Assembly: GCA_016789245.1 (NCBI GenBank)
Contig: JAEURM010000082.1
Span: 1 to 7,930 of the forward strand
Direction: 5' to 3'
DNA length: 7,930 bases
Source of the DNA: Anaerolineales bacterium
GTDB taxonomy: Bacteria; Chloroflexota; Anaerolineae; Anaerolineales; UBA6663
This document shows positions 686-7,930 of the stretch, piece after piece. The notes below the pieces were generated by a model, which did not search any database, was not told the DNA's origin, and worked only from the letters and a program-made list of their open reading frames with translations. The translations under genes and the position numbers were made by a program. Each line of letters opens with the position of its first letter. The stretch's first letter is position 1.

Positions 686-2242
686 ATGAGTTTTCCCATC
701 TTATCTGTTATCACCTTCACGCCGCTGGTGGCGGGCTTGCTTATTTTGATGTTGCCCGCTGAGCGCAAGAACGAAGCCCGCGTGGCCGCTTTAGCCACCG
801 GCGCTTTCACCGTTCTGCTCGCGCTGTTTGTGTACTTCGGCTTCAACCCGGCTGGCCCGCGCTTCCAATTTGTAGAAGGCCCGTATGAGTGGGTGCCGCA
901 ATTGGGCATCACTTACCACATGGCCATTGATGGCTTTGGCTTGCCCATGCTCTTGCTCACGGCGTTGGTGCTTTTCACCGGCGTGCTCATTTCATGGAAT
1001 ATTGATGACCGCCCGCGCGAGTTCATGGCCTTCTTCCTGTTCCTCTCAGTGGGCGTGTTCGGCGTGTTCGCCGCGCAAGATTTGTTCCTGTTCTTCTTCC
1101 TGCTAGAAATTGCCGTCTTTCCCAAATTCCTAATGATTGTGATTTGGGGTTCGCCCAAAACGCGTGAATACGGCGGTATGAAGCTCACGCTCTACTTGTT
1201 CTTTGCCTCGGTGGTGGCCCTGCTCGGCGTGTTATGGATGTACTCGCTCTCGCCCGTCAAAACCTTCAATATGATTTGGCTGGAAGAAGTGATGCGGGCG
1301 GGCGGTTTTGACCAAACGCTTAATCTGTTTGGTGCATCTGTATCCGCGCAAGCAGTGTGGTTCCCGCTGATTTTCTTCGGCTTTGCGGTGATGGGCGCTA
1401 TTTTCCCGCTCCACAGTTGGGCGCCCGATGGTCACGTGGCCGCACCCACCGCCATTTCCATGATGTTGGCCGGTGTGGAAATGAAGATTGGGATGTTCGC
1501 CGCCTTTCGCGTGGGCATTACGCTTCTGCCCGAAGGCGCTAAGTTCTGGGCACCCGTCATCGTCATCGTTGCGCTCATCAACGTGGTGTACGCCGCGTAT
1601 ATCGCGCTCATCCAAAAAGATTTCAAATACATCATCGGTTTCTCGTCCGTTTCGCACATGGGCTTGGTGATGATGGGCTTCGCCACGCTCTCGCCGAACG
1701 GCTTCTTGGGCGCCGGTCTGCAAATGTTCTCACACGGCGTGATGACGGCTCTTTTCTTCTCTATCGTCGGCATGGTGTATGACCGGGCGCACACGCGTAA
1801 CCTTCCGGATTTGGGCGGCTTTGTAAAGAAGATGCCGTGGGCGGCCATCGGCTTTATCATTGGCGGCTTCACGTCTATGGGTATGCCCGGCTTCTCCGGC
1901 TTCGTAGCCGAAATTCCGATTTATCTTGGCCTGTGGCAAGGGCGCACGCTCCCCGGCGCGGCCTTCCAAGCGCAACCATGGTTCTTCCCGCTCACGGCCG
2001 TTATCTCCGTAATCTCCATTGTGATTACGGCGGCTTATATTCTGCGGGCCGTGCAAAAGGTGTTCTTTGGTGAAATGCCCGCGCACTATGAACATGAAGT
2101 GGGCGATATTTCCGTATTAGATAAAGTGGCCATTGTGGTGTTGTGCGCCATGATGATTATCGTCGGCGTGTATCCGGCCATCATGTACCCGATTGTGAAC
2201 GCTGGCATTGCGCCGGTGCTGAACTTGTTTGGAGTGAACTAA
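686..2242 (+). CDS. nuoM: NADH-quinone oxidoreductase subunit M, second divergent copy
   Basis: This 518-residue membrane protein is a complex I antiporter-like subunit of normal NuoM length with about 14 hydrophobic helices. ATG 686 gives a typical NuoM N-terminus (MSFPILSVITFTPLVAG). An in-frame GTG at 641 would only add 15 polar residues and was not used. Family motifs include the TM5 glutamate E141 (LFFFLLEIAVFP), PLHSWAPDGH (241-250), TM8 lysine K267 (AGVEMK), the SHG helix near 349 with YDRAHTRNL, and TM12 glutamate E409 (GFSGFVAE). Oddities: the TM7 lysine of the usual FAVKMP motif is Met236 (FAVMGA), while K147 in TM5 and E265 in TM8 add charges not normal there. It could be a degenerate or re-wired pumping module. 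The gene abuts nuoN, whose ribosome binding site (GGAG 2231-2234) lies inside this gene. Confidence 0.93.
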   Translation: MSFPILSVITFTPLVAGLLILMLPAERKNEARVAALATGAFTVLLALFVYFGFNPAGPRFQFVEGPYEWVPQLGITYHMAIDGFGLPMLLLTALVLFTGVLISWNIDDRPREFMAFFLFLSVGVFGVFAAQDLFLFFFLLEIAVFPKFLMIVIWGSPKTREYGGMKLTLYLFFASVVALLGVLWMYSLSPVKTFNMIWLEEVMRAGGFDQTLNLFGASVSAQAVWFPLIFFGFAVMGAIFPLHSWAPDGHVAAPTAISMMLAGVEMKIGMFAAFRVGITLLPEGAKFWAPVIVIVALINVVYAAYIALIQKDFKYIIGFSSVSHMGLVMMGFATLSPNGFLGAGLQMFSHGVMTALFFSIVGMVYDRAHTRNLPDLGGFVKKMPWAAIGFIIGGFTSMGMPGFSGFVAEIPIYLGLWQGRTLPGAAFQAQPWFFPLTAVISVISIVITAAYILRAVQKVFFGEMPAHYEHEVGDISVLDKVAIVVLCAMMIIVGVYPAIMYPIVNAGIAPVLNLFGVN

Positions 2243-3721
2243 ATGACGCCCGTAGCCTTCTCGCCCGCGCACTTGCTGGCGGTTCTGCCTGAAATTTTGC
2301 TAGTGGTGGTGGCCGCCATCGTCATCATCGCTGATTTGGCGCAACGCCAAATCACTAAAGGCCAAGTGGGCCTCGCTATGCTAGAAGCGCGCCGCCGCAA
2401 TGTGGGCCTCGCCGCCGCCCTCGGCTTCCTTGTGGTGCTGGTAGTGTCTTTATTAGTCTCCCTGCCTAGCGTGGGTAATGACTTGATTTTTGGTGGCATG
2501 TTGCGCCACGATTTGATGGCCTTTATCTTCCGTGTGCTCTTCTTGTTCTCGGGCATGGTGGTGGCGCTGATTTCTATGGACTCCCCCACCATTGGCAAAC
2601 AAGGTGAATACTACGTGGTGCTGGTGGCCGCTGTGCTGGGCATGAACCTGATGGCCGCTTCGGCCGACTTAATCATGCTCTACCTCGCCGTGGAAACCAC
2701 CTCCATTGCGCTGTACGCGCTGGCGGGCTTCCTCCGCGAAGATAGCAAGAGCGCCGAATCTGGCTTGAAATATTTCCTCTTTGGCGCATTCACATCCACC
2801 ATCATGCTGTACGGCTTTAGTTTGCTGTACGGCTTTACGGGCCAAACCAACTTATACGCCATTGGCGAAGCGCTAACGGCGACGAACACGCCCGTGCTGT
2901 TTGCCTTATTCATGATTTTGGTAGGCCTCGGCTTCAAAATCTCGGCCGTGCCCTTCCACTTCTGGGCGCCGGATGTGTACGAAGGCGCACCCACGCCCAT
3001 CACAGCCTTCCTCTCCGTGGCCTCCAAAGCCGCCGGGTTTGCCGTGCTCATCCGCGTGCTCATGGCCGCCTTCCCGGCACAATCTGAGGTGTGGGTACAA
3101 GTGATTGCCGCCCTCTCCGCCGTGACGATGACGGTGGGCAACATCATCGCCCTCACGCAGAAAAACATCAAACGCCTGCTGGCTTATTCTTCCATCGCGC
3201 AAGCTGGTTACATCCTCATGGGCCTCGCCGCCTTTTCGGGTGAAGGCACGGCGGCCACGCTCTTTTACTTGGGCATGTACACGCTCACCAATTTGGCCGC
3301 GTTCGGCGCTATTGTGATGGTGACCCGTATCAGCGGTTCGGAAAGTATTGCCGATTTTAGCGGCCTCTCTCGCCGCGCGCCCGGCTTAGCATTGGTGATG
3401 TTGGTGGCCTTTCTATCTTTGGGCGGCATTCCGCCGCTGGCCGGTTTCTTTGGCAAGTTCTATCTGTTTACGGCCGCGCTCAATCAGGGTTTGGTGTGGT
3501 TGGCCGTAGTCGGCTTTATCAACGCCCTCATCAGCTTGTACTACTACTTGGTGGTACTCAAAGTTATTTATCTAAACGCACCCAAGGATGAAGCCAGCTA
3601 TCCAGTTTCCCGCCCGGCGGCGGTGGCGCTGTGGCTGTGCGTGATGGGCGTGTTTGTGGTGGGCGTACTCATTGGCCCGTGGGTCAATATCGCGGTGGCG
3701 GCGGCCAACGGGCTGTTTTGA
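2243..3721 (+). CDS. nuoN: NADH-quinone oxidoreductase subunit N
   Basis: The product has 492 residues, typical for NuoN, the antiporter-like subunit that usually ends bacterial nuo operons. It acts in the cytoplasmic membrane as part of the complex I proton-pumping arm. Conserved charges are intact: E141 in TM5 (YLAVETTSIALYAL), K222 in TM7 (GLGFKISAVPFHFWAPDVYEG), K252 in TM8 (SVASKAAGF) and K395 in TM12 (GGIPPLAGFFGKFY). ATG 2243 follows the TAA of the preceding gene with no gap. GGAG at 2231-2234 serves as ribosome binding site with an 8-base spacer, so the two genes are probably translationally coupled. The gene ends at TGA 3719-3721, 50 bases before the next start. Unlike its upstream neighbour, it has no odd residues at the channel positions. 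Confidence 0.97.
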   Translation: MTPVAFSPAHLLAVLPEILLVVVAAIVIIADLAQRQITKGQVGLAMLEARRRNVGLAAALGFLVVLVVSLLVSLPSVGNDLIFGGMLRHDLMAFIFRVLFLFSGMVVALISMDSPTIGKQGEYYVVLVAAVLGMNLMAASADLIMLYLAVETTSIALYALAGFLREDSKSAESGLKYFLFGAFTSTIMLYGFSLLYGFTGQTNLYAIGEALTATNTPVLFALFMILVGLGFKISAVPFHFWAPDVYEGAPTPITAFLSVASKAAGFAVLIRVLMAAFPAQSEVWVQVIAALSAVTMTVGNIIALTQKNIKRLLAYSSIAQAGYILMGLAAFSGEGTAATLFYLGMYTLTNLAAFGAIVMVTRISGSESIADFSGLSRRAPGLALVMLVAFLSLGGIPPLAGFFGKFYLFTAALNQGLVWLAVVGFINALISLYYYLVVLKVIYLNAPKDEASYPVSRPAAVALWLCVMGVFVVGVLIGPWVNIAVAAANGLF

Positions 3722-3770: not shown

Positions 3771-4043
3771 ATGAATAACCGCCCAGCCGCCAAACCTCAG
3801 CAGTATTCCCTCAACATGGCGGTGGCCATTACGGTTGGGTTGGGGGGCTTCATTGTGCTCGCCATTGTGCTCGCTACACTGGCGTTGGGATTAGTGATTG
3901 ACCGGGCGCTAGACACGCGGCCAATCTTTACGATTGGGCTGATGGTGCTCAGTGCGCCCGTAAGTATTTTTGTCATGTACCGCGTGGCAACAGGTATTAT
4001 TGCCAAATCGGTTGCCAAGCCGGAAATTAAGAACGAACAGTAA
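3771..4043 (+). CDS. atpI: AtpI/AtpZ-like small membrane protein of the ATP synthase operon
   Basis: This 90-residue protein has two hydrophobic helices, about residues 16-43 and 52-75, and short charged ends. The hinge GLVIDRALDTRPIF, with the G-x3-D pattern at G40/D44 and a T-x-P turn at T49-P51, resembles the AtpZ/AtpI family (ATPase_gene1). These small proteins open many bacterial atp operons and have been linked to c-ring assembly or cation supply to the F0 sector. Its place, first gene before atpB, supports the call more than the weak sequence signature does. ATG 3771 has no upstream Shine-Dalgarno sequence, but lies just downstream of a strong promoter, which suggests leaderless initiation. 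Whether it is AtpI or AtpZ proper cannot be settled by eye. Confidence 0.75.
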   Translation: MNNRPAAKPQQYSLNMAVAITVGLGGFIVLAIVLATLALGLVIDRALDTRPIFTIGLMVLSAPVSIFVMYRVATGIIAKSVAKPEIKNEQ

Positions 4044-4066
4044 CCGTTTGGTTGCTGAATTTTGAG

Positions 4067-4071
4067 AGGAG
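4067..4071 (+). promoter_or_regulatory. Ribosome binding site that sets the TTG start of atpB
   Basis: AGGAG at 4067-4071, within GAGAGGAG, sits 7 bases before an in-frame TTG at 4079-4081. An earlier in-frame TTG at 4052 has no such site and is followed by unrelated residues. The TTG at 4079 is therefore the better start. A non-ATG start may keep atpB translation lower than that of atpE, which has ATG. Confidence 0.8.
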
Positions 4072-4078
4072 AAAAGCC

Positions 4079-5221
4079 TTGACGACGCATGATCATGCTG
4101 AAGACAAGCCGCGCCGCATCGGCTTCAAACGCTGGATTTTTCTAGGGTTGATGATTCTGGGCGCACTGATGGCTTGGAACGCGTTTGGTATTTGGGGTGA
4201 AATTTGGCGTCCGGTGCCGCCGGCCGTTATCCTGCCCGCTGAGCCGGCTTGGCCGGGGCTGTATATTTTGCCCGGCGTGCCGCTCACCAACACTATGCTT
4301 TCCACGCTCATCGCCACCGGGTTGTTGTTCATAGTGGCGTTGTTTGCGGTGCAACCGCATGTGCGCAGTGGGCAAGAAGTGCCCTCCAATTTCTTCTATC
4401 ACGCCATGGAAGTCGGCGTGGAATTTTTCTGGAACACCGCCCAAAGCGTGGCGGGTAAGTGGGCGCGCCCCATCTTCGCTTTCTCCATGAGCATCTTCCT
4501 AGTGGTGCTGATGGTAAACCTGTTCAAGCTAGTGCCCATTCACGAAACCATTGGCTATGTGAAGAAAGGGCACGGCAGTATTCAGGGGTATGAAACTGTG
4601 CCGGTGCTTGGTGGCACACTCCACCTGCTGAACGGCTCGAAGCCTTTCCCCAAAGATCAACGGGAAGAACATAGCGAAGAGGCTAGCCACACAGAAGGCG
4701 AAGCCGCGCATGGTGAAGAAAGCGAATATTGGAACAGCACTGAGCCGTGCAAAGATTGTGAAATCGTCCCCACCTTCCGGGGTGCGGCCACCGATTTGAA
4801 CTTCACGGCCTCCCTTGCCATCGTCACCATGCTCATGGTGCAAGTCTTTGGTGTGATGGCGCTTGGCCCCGGCTACTTCGTCAAATTCTTCAACGTCACC
4901 ACCATGATTAAGAAGCCGATTTTCGGTTTGATTGACTTCTTGGTGGGCATCTTGGAATTGATTTCCGAAATTGCCAAAGTGCTCTCGTTCTCGTTGCGTC
5001 TCTTCGGCGTAATCTTCGCCGGTACTTTGTTGCTTTCAATTGTTAGTACGCTGAGTTTTGGCGGTGCGCAACCCACGGCCTTCTTTGTGCCGGGCCTGCT
5101 CTTAGGCCTAGAGTTGTTCGTCGGTATTATTCAAGCGTATGTCTTTTCAACACTCGCGCTCACGTTTATGAGTCAGGCCACGGTCTCGCACCACGGCGAT
5201 GACCATGCCGAGGCGCACTAA
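4079..5221 (+). CDS. atpB: F0F1 ATP synthase subunit a, with long His/Glu-rich insertion
   Basis: Subunit a provides the proton half-channels beside the c-ring. The invariant arginine is R307 in FSLRLFG, equivalent to E. coli R210, and Q352 in GIIQAYVF matches Q252. TDLN (229-232) marks the helix after the extramembrane loop. At 380 residues the protein is about 110 longer than E. coli subunit a. The extra length comes from an added N-terminal hydrophobic segment (about 18-36) and an insertion at about 150-225 rich in His and Glu, ending in a CxxC (C224, C227). In the R307 motif, the usual Asn after RLFG is Val311, and the Glu of AGE is Thr316, while Glu345 may take over that carboxylate position. 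The start is TTG 4079, behind a good AGGAG. The gap to atpE is 36 bases. Confidence 0.95.
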   Translation: MTTHDHAEDKPRRIGFKRWIFLGLMILGALMAWNAFGIWGEIWRPVPPAVILPAEPAWPGLYILPGVPLTNTMLSTLIATGLLFIVALFAVQPHVRSGQEVPSNFFYHAMEVGVEFFWNTAQSVAGKWARPIFAFSMSIFLVVLMVNLFKLVPIHETIGYVKKGHGSIQGYETVPVLGGTLHLLNGSKPFPKDQREEHSEEASHTEGEAAHGEESEYWNSTEPCKDCEIVPTFRGAATDLNFTASLAIVTMLMVQVFGVMALGPGYFVKFFNVTTMIKKPIFGLIDFLVGILELISEIAKVLSFSLRLFGVIFAGTLLLSIVSTLSFGGAQPTAFFVPGLLLGLELFVGIIQAYVFSTLALTFMSQATVSHHGDDHAEAH

Positions 5222-5257
5222 GTTTTCATCCATTACTTCACCGGAGGCAGACTGAAC

Positions 5258-5497
5258 ATGGAATTTAATGACATCTTCTTGCAAGCAATGCGCTACATCG
5301 GGGCTGGTCTCGCCGTCATTGGCGTGGCTGGCGCAGGCGCAGGCATTGGTATTGTGGTGGGCGGTGCGGTGCAGGCTATGGCCCGCAACCCCGATTTCAC
5401 CCCTACTATCCAAACGAACATGATCCTCGGTATCGCGTTCGCCGAAGCGGTGGCCATTTACGCCTTGGCCGTGGCGCTCATCATTCTGTTTGTGTAA
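5258..5497 (+). CDS. atpE: F0F1 ATP synthase subunit c
   Basis: This 79-residue hairpin protein forms the rotating c-ring of F0. Helix 1 carries the glycine repeat GAGAGIG (25-31) for tight helix packing. The polar loop is ARNP (42-45). Helix 2 carries the ion-binding carboxylate E63 in FAEAVAIYAL. The residues that usually mark sodium-binding rings are absent: there is no glutamine in the matching part of helix 1, and the residue after E63 is Ala, not Ser or Thr. Proton coupling is therefore inferred. GGAGG at 5243-5247 lies 10 bases before ATG 5258. The gene sits between atpB and atpF in the normal order, with atpF only 9 bases downstream. Confidence 0.97.
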   Translation: MEFNDIFLQAMRYIGAGLAVIGVAGAGAGIGIVVGGAVQAMARNPDFTPTIQTNMILGIAFAEAVAIYALAVALIILFV

Positions 5498-5506
5498 GGA
5501 GCGAAC

Positions 5507-6250
5507 ATGGAAGCATTAGCCAATCTGGGTATTAACCCCGGCTTCTTACTGTTGTTCACCGTCTACTTTTTAGTAGTGGTGGGCGTGATGACGATTTGGG
5601 TGTACAACCCCATCATCAACGGCTTGGAAGCGCGGAAGAAGAAAATTGCGCAAGGCTTAGAAGATGCCCGCGTGGCCTCGGAAGCGCGTGCCAACGCCGA
5701 AGTGGAAGCCAAGAAAGTGATTGCGGAAGCACAAGCGCAAGCCAACAAAATTGTGGCCGAAGCCACCGCCCGCGCCGAGAAATCGGCGGCGGATGTGAAG
5801 GCGGCGGCGGAATCTGAACGCGCCCGTATCATCCAATCGGCGGAAGGTGATATTACGGCGGCCCGCACGCAAATGCTGGCCGATTTGCGCCCGCAGGTGG
5901 CCTCCCTCGCCATTTCCGCCGCCAACAAAATTGTGGCGGATACGCTGGATGAAAACCGCCAGCGCGCGCTGATCAATGAATTTTTCAGCGGCGTGAAGAG
6001 CGGCAAAGTGGTGGTGGTGGAAGATGCCAGCCTGAGCGGCGCCTCTGCCGAAGTAACCAGCGCCCTGCCGCTGACTGACGCCGAGCAAGCCGCCGTGAAG
6101 AGTGACATTACGGCCAAGATGGGCGGCGGTGATGTGGCCTTCAAAGTGGACCCCAGCATCCTCGGTGGTTTAGTGGTGCGCGTGGGTGATAAAGTCATTG
6201 ATGGCTCCGTGTCTGGCAAACTGCAAGGCCTGAAGCAATCTGTGAAGTAA
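5507..6250 (+). CDS. atpF: F0F1 ATP synthase subunit b fused to a delta C-terminal domain
   Basis: The stator subunit links F0 to F1. Residues 11-32 form the single membrane helix. About 36-155 is an Ala/Glu/Lys/Arg-rich helix (EARKKKIAQGLEDAR and following), as in subunit b. The last 75-80 residues are not b-like: AEVTSALPLT (171-180), VDPSILGGLVVRVGDKVIDG (214-233) and SVSGKL match the C-terminal domain of subunit delta (E. coli AtpH has GDMVIDGSVRGRL). At 247 residues the protein is about 90 longer than a normal b. The N-terminal helical domain of delta, which contacts the alpha subunits, is absent, so this differs from the actinobacterial b-delta fusion with complete delta. AAGGAG (5496-5501) precedes ATG 5507 by 5 bases. 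A terminator follows. Confidence 0.93.
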   Translation: MEALANLGINPGFLLLFTVYFLVVVGVMTIWVYNPIINGLEARKKKIAQGLEDARVASEARANAEVEAKKVIAEAQAQANKIVAEATARAEKSAADVKAAAESERARIIQSAEGDITAARTQMLADLRPQVASLAISAANKIVADTLDENRQRALINEFFSGVKSGKVVVVEDASLSGASAEVTSALPLTDAEQAAVKSDITAKMGGGDVAFKVDPSILGGLVVRVGDKVIDGSVSGKLQGLKQSVK

Positions 6251-6426: not shown

Positions 6427-7930
6427 ATGCTTCTATCTCAATTATTGTCCGCCCTCCCGCATCCGGCCTCCCGCTCTGATGACGCTGATCCGGAAATTAC
6501 CAGCATCACCGCTGATTCACGGCAGGTGACGCTGGGCGCGTTGTTTGTGGCGCGGCGCGGCGAAACCGTGGACGGCCACCGTTTTATTCCCCAAGCCATT
6601 GAGAACGGCGCGGTGGCCATTGTGTGCGAAGCGCCACTTTCTACTTTCTACTCACTACCTGCTCTCATCGTTCCCAACGCCTCCGAGGCTCTTGCGTGGT
6701 TGGCCGCCGCGTGGCATGGCTTCCCGGCGCGCCGCTTGGTGATGATTGGCGTGACCGGCACCGATGGCAAAACCACCACCTCCACACTCATCCATAGCAT
6801 TTTGCAAGCGGCCGGTGTGCGCGCTGGCCTCATCTCCACCGTGGGCGCGGTGATTGGGGAGCAAACGCTGGATACGGGCTTTCACGTTACCACGCCGGAA
6901 GCAGTAGAAGTACAGAGTTACCTCGCGCAGATGGTGGCCGCCGGCTTCACTCATTGCGTGCTAGAAACCACCTCGCACGGTTGGGCGCAATACCGCGTGG
7001 ATGCGTGTGAGTTTGATGTGGCGGTGATTACCAACATCACCCATGAACATTTGGATTATCACAAAACGTACGAGAACTACCGCGCCGCCAAAGGCCGCTT
7101 GTTTGAAAGCCTAAGCACCGCCGCGCGGAAACCGGGCGTGGCAAAAACCGGCGTGCTGAATTTAGATGATAGCTCGCACGCGTACTTGAGCAGTGTGCTG
7201 AAGGTAAATAGCCTAAGGTACAGCCACACGGCCCGCACGGGTGTAACAGCGCGTTACATTGAATTTGCCCCCGAAGCCACGCGCTTTGAAATTCAATTCG
7301 CCAATTCTCCAATAACTAATCTACCCATCATGTCCTCGCTCCTCGGCCAATTCAACGTCTCCAACGTGTTGGCCGCGGTGGCCGCCACCGTGGGCGCGTT
7401 AGGCGTTGCGCCAGAGGCCGCCCAAACCGGCGTGGCACAACTGCGTGGTGTGCCGGGCCGCATGGAGCGCCTCAGCCTTGGCCAGCCCTTCACCGCCATT
7501 GTGGATTTTGCCCACACGCCCAACGCTCTGCGCCGCGCACTGGAAACGGCGCGTGAGATGCGGCACGCGGCTGGCCGTGGCCGGGTGATTGCGGCCTTTG
7601 GCTCTGCTGGTTTGCGGGATATTGAAAAGCGGCGGCTGATGGCCGAAACCTCCGCCGAGCTAGCAGATATCACCATCCTCACCGCTGAAGACCCGCGCAC
7701 AGAATCCCTCACTGATATTTTGGAAATGATGGCTCACGGCGCGCGGAACAAGGGCGGCGTGGAAGGCGTGAGTTTTTTTCGCGTTCCAGACCGTGGGGAA
7801 GCCATTCGGCTGGCGTGCCGCTTGGCGCAACCCGGTGATATTGTGCTAGCTTGCGGCAAAGGTCATGAGCAAAGCATGTGTTTTGGCACCACGGAGTATG
7901 CGTGGGATGACCGCACCGCCCTGCACGCCG
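6427..7930 (+). CDS. murE: UDP-MurNAc-tripeptide ligase, MurE-like (3' end beyond window)
   Basis: The product is a cytoplasmic ATP-dependent Mur ligase that adds the third amino acid to UDP-MurNAc-dipeptide. There are 501 visible residues. The N-terminal domain has ITADSR (27-32) and LFVARRGETVDGH. The ATP loop is GTDGKTTT (111-118, K115). TTPEA (155-159) and NITHEHLDYH (203-212) follow, then AKGRLF with K222, the expected carbamylated lysine. The C-terminal domain has GVPGRMER (341-348), DFAHTPNAL (360-368), GKGHEQ (477-482) and WDDR. E. coli MurE has 495 residues, so only a short tail is probably missing. EDPR (421-424) replaces the diaminopimelate-type DNPR, and FGSAGLRD (391-398) replaces the usual FGCGGDRD, so the added amino acid is uncertain. 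ATG 6427 gives a standard N-terminus but has no clear Shine-Dalgarno sequence. Confidence 0.9.
   Translation, partial: MLLSQLLSALPHPASRSDDADPEITSITADSRQVTLGALFVARRGETVDGHRFIPQAIENGAVAIVCEAPLSTFYSLPALIVPNASEALAWLAAAWHGFPARRLVMIGVTGTDGKTTTSTLIHSILQAAGVRAGLISTVGAVIGEQTLDTGFHVTTPEAVEVQSYLAQMVAAGFTHCVLETTSHGWAQYRVDACEFDVAVITNITHEHLDYHKTYENYRAAKGRLFESLSTAARKPGVAKTGVLNLDDSSHAYLSSVLKVNSLRYSHTARTGVTARYIEFAPEATRFEIQFANSPITNLPIMSSLLGQFNVSNVLAAVAATVGALGVAPEAAQTGVAQLRGVPGRMERLSLGQPFTAIVDFAHTPNALRRALETAREMRHAAGRGRVIAAFGSAGLRDIEKRRLMAETSAELADITILTAEDPRTESLTDILEMMAHGARNKGGVEGVSFFRVPDRGEAIRLACRLAQPGDIVLACGKGHEQSMCFGTTEYAWDDRTALHA

Follow-up and report, generated by a model that had tools for sequence, protein, structure and literature searches.

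The founding paper on the 2M type of complex I is said to be that of Chadwick et al. 2018. The complex and its gene order in Chloroflexi, nuoLM1M2N, are already known, and an extra proton per cycle has been proposed, or is thought, to go with it (PMC7117926, PMC9040806 and PMC6606698, in the parts of these papers that are available).

The role that Glu–Lys pairs play in long-range proton pumping by antiporter-like subunits is disputed. The wave, domino and histidine-switch mechanisms, in the published portions at hand, treat the lysine of TM7 as a fixed part. In NuoL and MrpA, a histidine switch has been described, which consists of His254 on TM8 with Ser150 as its hydrogen-bond partner (accessible sections of PMC13358369 and PMC9568556); the first of these sources also describes the His254–Ser150–Lys229 region of NuoL.

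The second NuoM of the window

The window, by which we mean the whole stretch of 7,930 nucleotides that was analysed (contig JAEURM010000082.1, from an Anaerolineales bacterium), carries a second NuoM between M1 and N, as in 2M complex I:

1 to 543, + strand: C-terminal 181 residues of NuoM1 (TIGR01972 165 bits, profile positions 323-483), assigned as M1 by position and score; its TM5-TM8 fall beyond the window and only the C-terminal part is seen
686 to 2242, + strand: nuoM2, 518 amino acids, a NuoM without the TM7 lysine, of the TM5-Lys type
2243 to 3721, + strand: nuoN (TIGR01770 408.8 bits, cut-off 332.6), TM7 lysine present in the motif GFKISAVPFHFWAPDVY

ATP synthase genes lie directly after nuoN (3771-6250). 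They encode a protein of the PF09527 family (ATPase gene 1), AtpB, AtpE (5258-5494) and a b subunit that is fused to the C-terminal part of delta (domain PF00430, then PF00213). AtpB (4052-5218) has 389 residues from a TTG start, while the PF00119 and TIGR01131 models span 217-227 positions, and its matched domain contains the Glu/His-rich stretch EEHSEEASHTEGEAAHGEESEYWNSTEPCKDCE. The next gene, at 6427, is murE, so that the gene of F1 alpha is not next here.

The nuoM2 frame has no internal stop over its 518 codons, and its product scores 427.1 bits against the TIGR01972 NuoM model (cut-off 263.8) and has the antiporter-like fold of NuoM. The residues that matter for what follows are:

1106 to 1108, + strand: Glu141, TM5 acid of the ion pair, kept
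1124 to 1126, + strand: Lys147, TM5, gained base; site of NuoL Ser150 (Glu144+6) by hhalign mapping
1196 to 1198, + strand: Leu171, TM6, His in a side clade of eight cores; adjoins the site of the NuoL TM6 Arg
1391 to 1393, + strand: Met236 (ATG), place of the lost TM7 lysine, within LIFFGFAVMGAIFPLHSWAPDGH
1421 to 1423, + strand: Ala246, site of the TM7b gate leucine (L242 of P. denitrificans)
1466 to 1468, + strand: Leu261, TM8, His in most relatives; site of NuoL His254 in the hhalign register
1478 to 1480, + strand: Glu265, TM8, gained acid; site of NuoL Met258
1484 to 1486, + strand: Lys267, central lysine of TM8, kept
1910 to 1912, + strand: Glu409, terminal acid of TM12, kept

The sequence-only reading of this DNA had placed a methionine where NuoM has its TM7 lysine, and the ATG codon and phmmer alignments to the NuoM of Paracoccus, Thermosynechococcus and E. 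coli, whose TM7 lysine aligns with Met236, agree with it. The TM7 stretch LIFFGFAVMGAIFPLHSWAPDGH contains no lysine elsewhere, so that neither an alternative lysine at this site nor an alignment slip that would conceal one comes into question. Half of the canonical ion pair is thus gone, while its TM5 glutamate is present, and so are the TM8 lysine and the TM12 glutamate, as the same reading had it; His324 and His350 are also retained. What it overlooked are Lys147 on TM5 and Glu265 on TM8, on which the interpretation turns. In one of two AlphaFold2 models the pLDDT minimum is at 246-252, adjoining the site of the lost lysine.

The earlier view that the gene is intact is borne out: a pseudogene or a misread codon is ruled out by the open frame, by the TM7 column, which is Leu, Ile or Met in the window protein and in all of the 120 best listed matches (of 7988 proteins over threshold), and by a low dN/dS in relatives. 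The latter is 0.035-0.23 for M2 (12 locus pairs), and the values for M1 and N (10 pairs each) are similar; some dS exceed 1.

The gate leucine changes along with the lysine. Site 246 is Leu in 83 of 83 rows that have the TM7 lysine, and Ser (73), Ala (9) or Val (2) in the 84 rows that lack it; nearly all of these 84 also have Tyr or Phe in place of Arg315 and Ala in place of Glu252. Sites 236 and 246 are K232 and L242 of Paracoccus NuoM, where K232Q and L242A each severely lower membrane activity and the purified enzymes reduce no ubiquinone (PMC9802314, available part). Since either substitution stops catalysis of the purified enzyme, a canonical NuoM does not tolerate the change without cost, which weighs against the reading that we favour below; with Met236 and Ala246 the window carries changes at two positions that are singly fatal in canonical NuoM. 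An open gate is not without precedent, since this position is Ala, Ser, Thr or Val in the NuoN that these operons encode.

Distribution of the Lys-less NuoM

A scan of genome contigs gave 518 confirmed matches, of which the best 80, with Chloroflexota names in their titles, were used. Together with the window's own they make a set of 81 M2 proteins, with M1 upstream in 78 and L in 67 (the three contigs without a visible M1 stop before it), and the gene order is L-M1-M2-N where the contig extends. The TM7 lysine is absent from all 81 M2 of this set (80 best of 518 loci and the window), where Leu is usual and Met, found in 2 of the 81, is the minority state. In the same operons it is present in L (66/67), M1 (74/78) and N (76/77), the rest being gaps.

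The lost lysine is not a quirk of the second copy, as the sequence-only reading could suggest. We searched 400 Chloroflexota genomes, which gave matches in 297, and took 60 regions from the lower-ranked matches. Among these 60, 18 L-M-N loci have a Lys-less NuoM as their sole M (15 with the TM8 histidine, 3 of the side type described below), which rules out that the trait is confined to second copies. That methionine might be common at this place in ordinary single-copy NuoM does not hold for Met itself (0 of 18), but the single-M loci of this clade do as a rule have Leu, and hence no lysine, in TM7. In 16 of the 18 genomes another NuoM with a TM7 lysine is encoded elsewhere, with L and N genes flanking it (in one of the 16, L210, the flanking L is partly on the contig only). 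No further TM7-Lys NuoM was found in the other two (G303 and G247, which are possibly incomplete); the operon of L226, which belongs to one of these two genomes, has matches to nuoC, D, H and I as well, of which D and H pass a cut-off. A separate lineage of complex I thus seems to have the Lys-less form as its ordinary NuoM, and in the 2M operons this form stands together with a canonical M1.

It is important to note that the sampling covers one phylum and was gathered by similarity to Lys-less proteins; all named organisms among the 120 listed matches of each of three protein searches are Chloroflexota. The phylum-wide pattern count (67 of 400 genomes) omits the M2 of the L127-L139 group and includes some matches outside NuoM, and is therefore not taken as a prevalence.

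The sequence-only reading offered that the module could be uncoupled, purely structural or served by another proton path. The last option is close to what we propose below; a spare or uncoupled module fits poorly with a clade that supplies the sole NuoM of 18 L-M-N loci. In a more definite form, M2 would be a segment of a longer membrane arm that is kept for structure or for passing a signal, and does not pump. The canonical M1 beside it in 2M operons, and the replacement in the window of both sites that are each needed for catalysis in Paracoccus (PMC9802314, as far as available), would speak for such a role. It is at odds with the single-M loci, even if 16 of the 18 genomes have a TM7-Lys NuoM elsewhere, with the presence of Glu141, Glu409, His324 and His350 in 81 of 81 M2 (80 best of 518 loci and the window), and with a selection on M2 of roughly the same strictness as that on its neighbours M1 and N. 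We consider it unlikely.

One base at four sites

The listed matches of the three protein searches were pooled with the loci and 40 further regions, which gave 738 rows and 671 distinct NuoM cores (330 from proteins and 341 from loci). One database M2 protein (P0041), in which some 41 residues around TM5-TM6 are repeated internally, maybe through faulty assembly, was excluded from later alignments. In 671 of 671 distinct cores, the sites 236, 261, 147 and 171 hold a single basic residue (K, R or H) between them, never more and never fewer: Lys at 236 on TM7 in 171 cores, His at 261 on TM8 in 447, Lys at 147 on TM5 in 45, the window's type, and His at 171 on TM6 in 8. The lysine is therefore not simply missing, as had been supposed; the base is relocated, to Lys147 in the window and to another of the four sites in each of the 500 Lys-less distinct cores, which is hard to expect of a segment that does not pump.

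The 81 M2 (80 best of 518 loci and the window) fall into two linked states with no mixtures, Met147/His261/Leu265 in 58 and Lys147/Leu261/Glu265 in 23, including the window. Among the 45 TM5-Lys cores, site 265 is E in 42 and V in 3. Two named strains, Longilinea arvoryzae KOME-1 and Levilinea saccharolytica KIBI-1 (loci L025 and L080), are of the TM5-Lys type.

Site 171 was included post hoc, after a side clade with Asp141 and Ala261 had appeared to break the rule (L151-L153, L227 and L228, with a single M). The idea of this 'DMLAL' clade as a baseless exception was set aside when a comparison of columns revealed its TM6 histidine, His171, in this same post hoc step; L227 and L228, fetched later for their resemblance to the clade, also carry it.

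Glu409 is present in 671 of 671 cores, and in the 500 Lys-less ones His324 in all and His350 in 493. The TM8 lysine is at site 267 in 488 of these 500 and at 266 in the other 12, so that its apparent loss in L118, L120-126 and L150 is ruled out, the lysine being one residue earlier. In the M2 subclade L120-L126, Lys266 occurs with Gly in place of His350, and His261 is kept.

The acid at 141 is Glu in 660 of the 671 cores; ten others have Asp there, and one has Gly. The His171 clade accounts for eight of the Asp141 rows, and of the other two, one has His261 (L102) and one the TM7 lysine (L205). The single core with no acid there is L234 (169-1707, + strand), a Lys-less NuoM with His261 and Gly141. 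The base rule is exact but the acid is not wholly constant, which counts against a strict acid–base pair; such pairing is not fully upheld, given Gly141 in L234 and Asp141 in L102 and L205. L234 can also be read in favour of a module that has ceased to pump.

In a FastTree of 167 NuoM rows, from which the trait columns had been removed, the TM7 lysine is lost on one branch (support 100), this Lys-less branch is sister to the canonical single-copy NuoM of Chloroflexota, and the four base states need four changes. A second tree, of 55 hand-picked rows, agrees with the first. It needs two origins of the TM5 lysine, a single origin being found in 0 of 200 bootstrap trees, and forcing the 11 TM5-Lys rows together is rejected (AU p 0.002), with a grouping that was already known from the first tree. 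By parsimony on the trees, the TM7 lysine was lost once, the TM5 lysine was gained twice and the TM6 histidine once. Neither of the two TM5-Lys origins has His261. The second of these, L110/L111 (M2), combines Lys147 with Thr236 and, in place of Glu265, with Val265; it is a natural control for the need of Glu265.

An hhalign comparison of M2 with the NuoL families of these operons places site 147 at the TM5 serine of NuoL (Glu+6) and, with a one-residue gap before TM8, site 261 at its TM8 histidine and site 265 at the methionine four residues later, that is Ser150, His254 and Met258 in E. coli NuoL numbering. One replacement site thus aligns with the switch site, which connects the ion pair with the histidine switch of NuoL; in the window, this site is Leu261 and there is no switch histidine. 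In the same comparison, site 171 precedes the TM6 arginine of NuoL, whose counterpart in Thermus is presumably Arg163. The latter and the TM5 glutamate are given as ion-pair partners (PMC11496545, available part). Based on the homology of the four sites to NuoL positions, they probably lie round the TM5 acid.

Ten columns are fully switched between the TM5-Lys and the TM8-His M2, and five of them are among 12 mapped sites of the NuoL His254–Ser150–Lys229 region (p 6e-7), from which the residue printed as 'Ile254' in the paper was omitted. Without 147 and 261, the figures are three of eight switched columns (p 3e-4). Seven of the 12 mapped sites are invariant in M2.

It may be that this covariation is structural, the four sites packing or balancing charge in such a way that one base is needed for folding or assembly, with no role in proton transfer. 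Consistent with this, the uncharged pocket columns 150 and 246 switch in step, the other five of the ten fully switched columns (118, 140, 163, 260 and 268) are outside the pocket, and the acid at 141 can differ while the base stays the same. Packing would hardly produce a rule that covers titratable residues on four helices with no exception in 671 cores, nor does it account for a TM8 lysine and a TM12 glutamate in every Lys-less core. We find it somewhat less likely still than a spacer role.

We favour a working module with a moved base over an uncoupled or purely structural copy. In a first step, the ancestor of the NuoM branch would have exchanged the TM7 lysine for a histidine on TM8, where NuoL has its switch. 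In a second step, in the window's lineage, this histidine would have been replaced by Lys147, which faces it on TM5, together with the gain of an acid on TM8 (Glu265) and a change to a smaller side chain at the TM7b gate (Ala246). The moved base would replace the TM7 lysine as partner of Glu141, the pair opening and closing with the passing wave and the base being titrated in the cycle, after which a proton would pass from Lys267 to Glu409. Another possible partner of Lys147 in the window is Glu265, which would give a Lys–Glu switch one helix over. The sequences themselves show the residue states, the one-base rule, the constraint on M2 and, by alignment, the NuoL positions of the sites; we infer that the moved base pairs with Glu141 and is titrated, and that the module pumps a proton. 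The single base at one of four sites in all 671 cores suggests that a key charge of the pump can move without breaking the machine.

The moved base may instead be an adaptation that alters the pKa, the ion or the number of ions, with Na+ or a proton step at lower force as examples. Histidine and lysine differ in pKa, the changes of the gate leucine to Ser or Ala and of Arg315 to Tyr or Phe go with the exchange, and related Mrp complexes exchange Na+ for H+, according to the available portions of the literature. Against it stands the AtpE of the window, whose motif FAEAVAIY we take to be of the H+ type. Such a change of coupling seems to us the least probable of the three alternatives.

Comparison with known systems

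Our best reading, to which we give a probability of about 0.6, is that nuoM2 is the Chloroflexota-type second NuoM of 2M complex I and still a working antiporter-like module, the base of whose ion pair has moved. The broader proposal, that this base is a movable part, which went from a TM7 lysine to a TM8 histidine and from there twice to a TM5 lysine and once to a TM6 histidine, always as a single base and with pumping kept, is more tentative, and close to an even call. If it is true, the textbook geometry, Glu on TM5 and Lys on TM7, is one of several working solutions, and nature already supplies a series of swaps for testing what the pair does: they separate the need for a base near the TM5 acid from the need for this lysine on the broken helix. 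No publication was found, in the partial texts searched, on a second NuoM that has lost its TM7 lysine or on a base that hops between helices; Chadwick et al. 2018, which was beyond the search, may contain an earlier mention.

The window resembles 2M complex I by its order M1-M2-N, and its relatives by L-M1-M2-N and a C-terminus of NuoL that tends to be longer. Behind the TM12 motif, NuoL continues for a median of 269 residues in the 2M relatives (n=83, 245-308) and of 235 (n=18, 227-295) and 244 (n=17, 171-303) in one-M loci, with ranges that overlap that of 2M; these lengths are from relatives only, the window's own NuoL lying outside it. What differs is an M2 with a Lys-less TM7 and its base on TM8 or TM5, which is absent from the published descriptions, in the parts examined.

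With NuoM, ND4 and Nqo13, which have the TM5 Glu–TM7 Lys pair, M2 shares the fold, the TM5 glutamate, the TM8 lysine, the two histidines and the TM12 glutamate. The window's M2 differs from them by the lack of the TM7 lysine, a replaced gate leucine, a new base on TM5 and a new acid on TM8.

The TM8 histidine of most relatives aligns with His254 of the NuoL/MrpA switch, and site 147 with its Ser150 (PMC13358369 and PMC9568556, available parts). However, NuoL also keeps its TM7 lysine, while in the Lys-less NuoM the base replaces it, and the window has Leu261 and Lys147.

Last, His222 of Fhl is a titratable residue that is thought to take over from a neighbouring helix in an antiporter-like subunit (PMC13358369, in its available part), like what we propose here for the ion-pair base. 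In that source, the case is a single structure-based proposal that concerns the switch histidine and not the lysine of the ion pair, and no exchange across a family is described.
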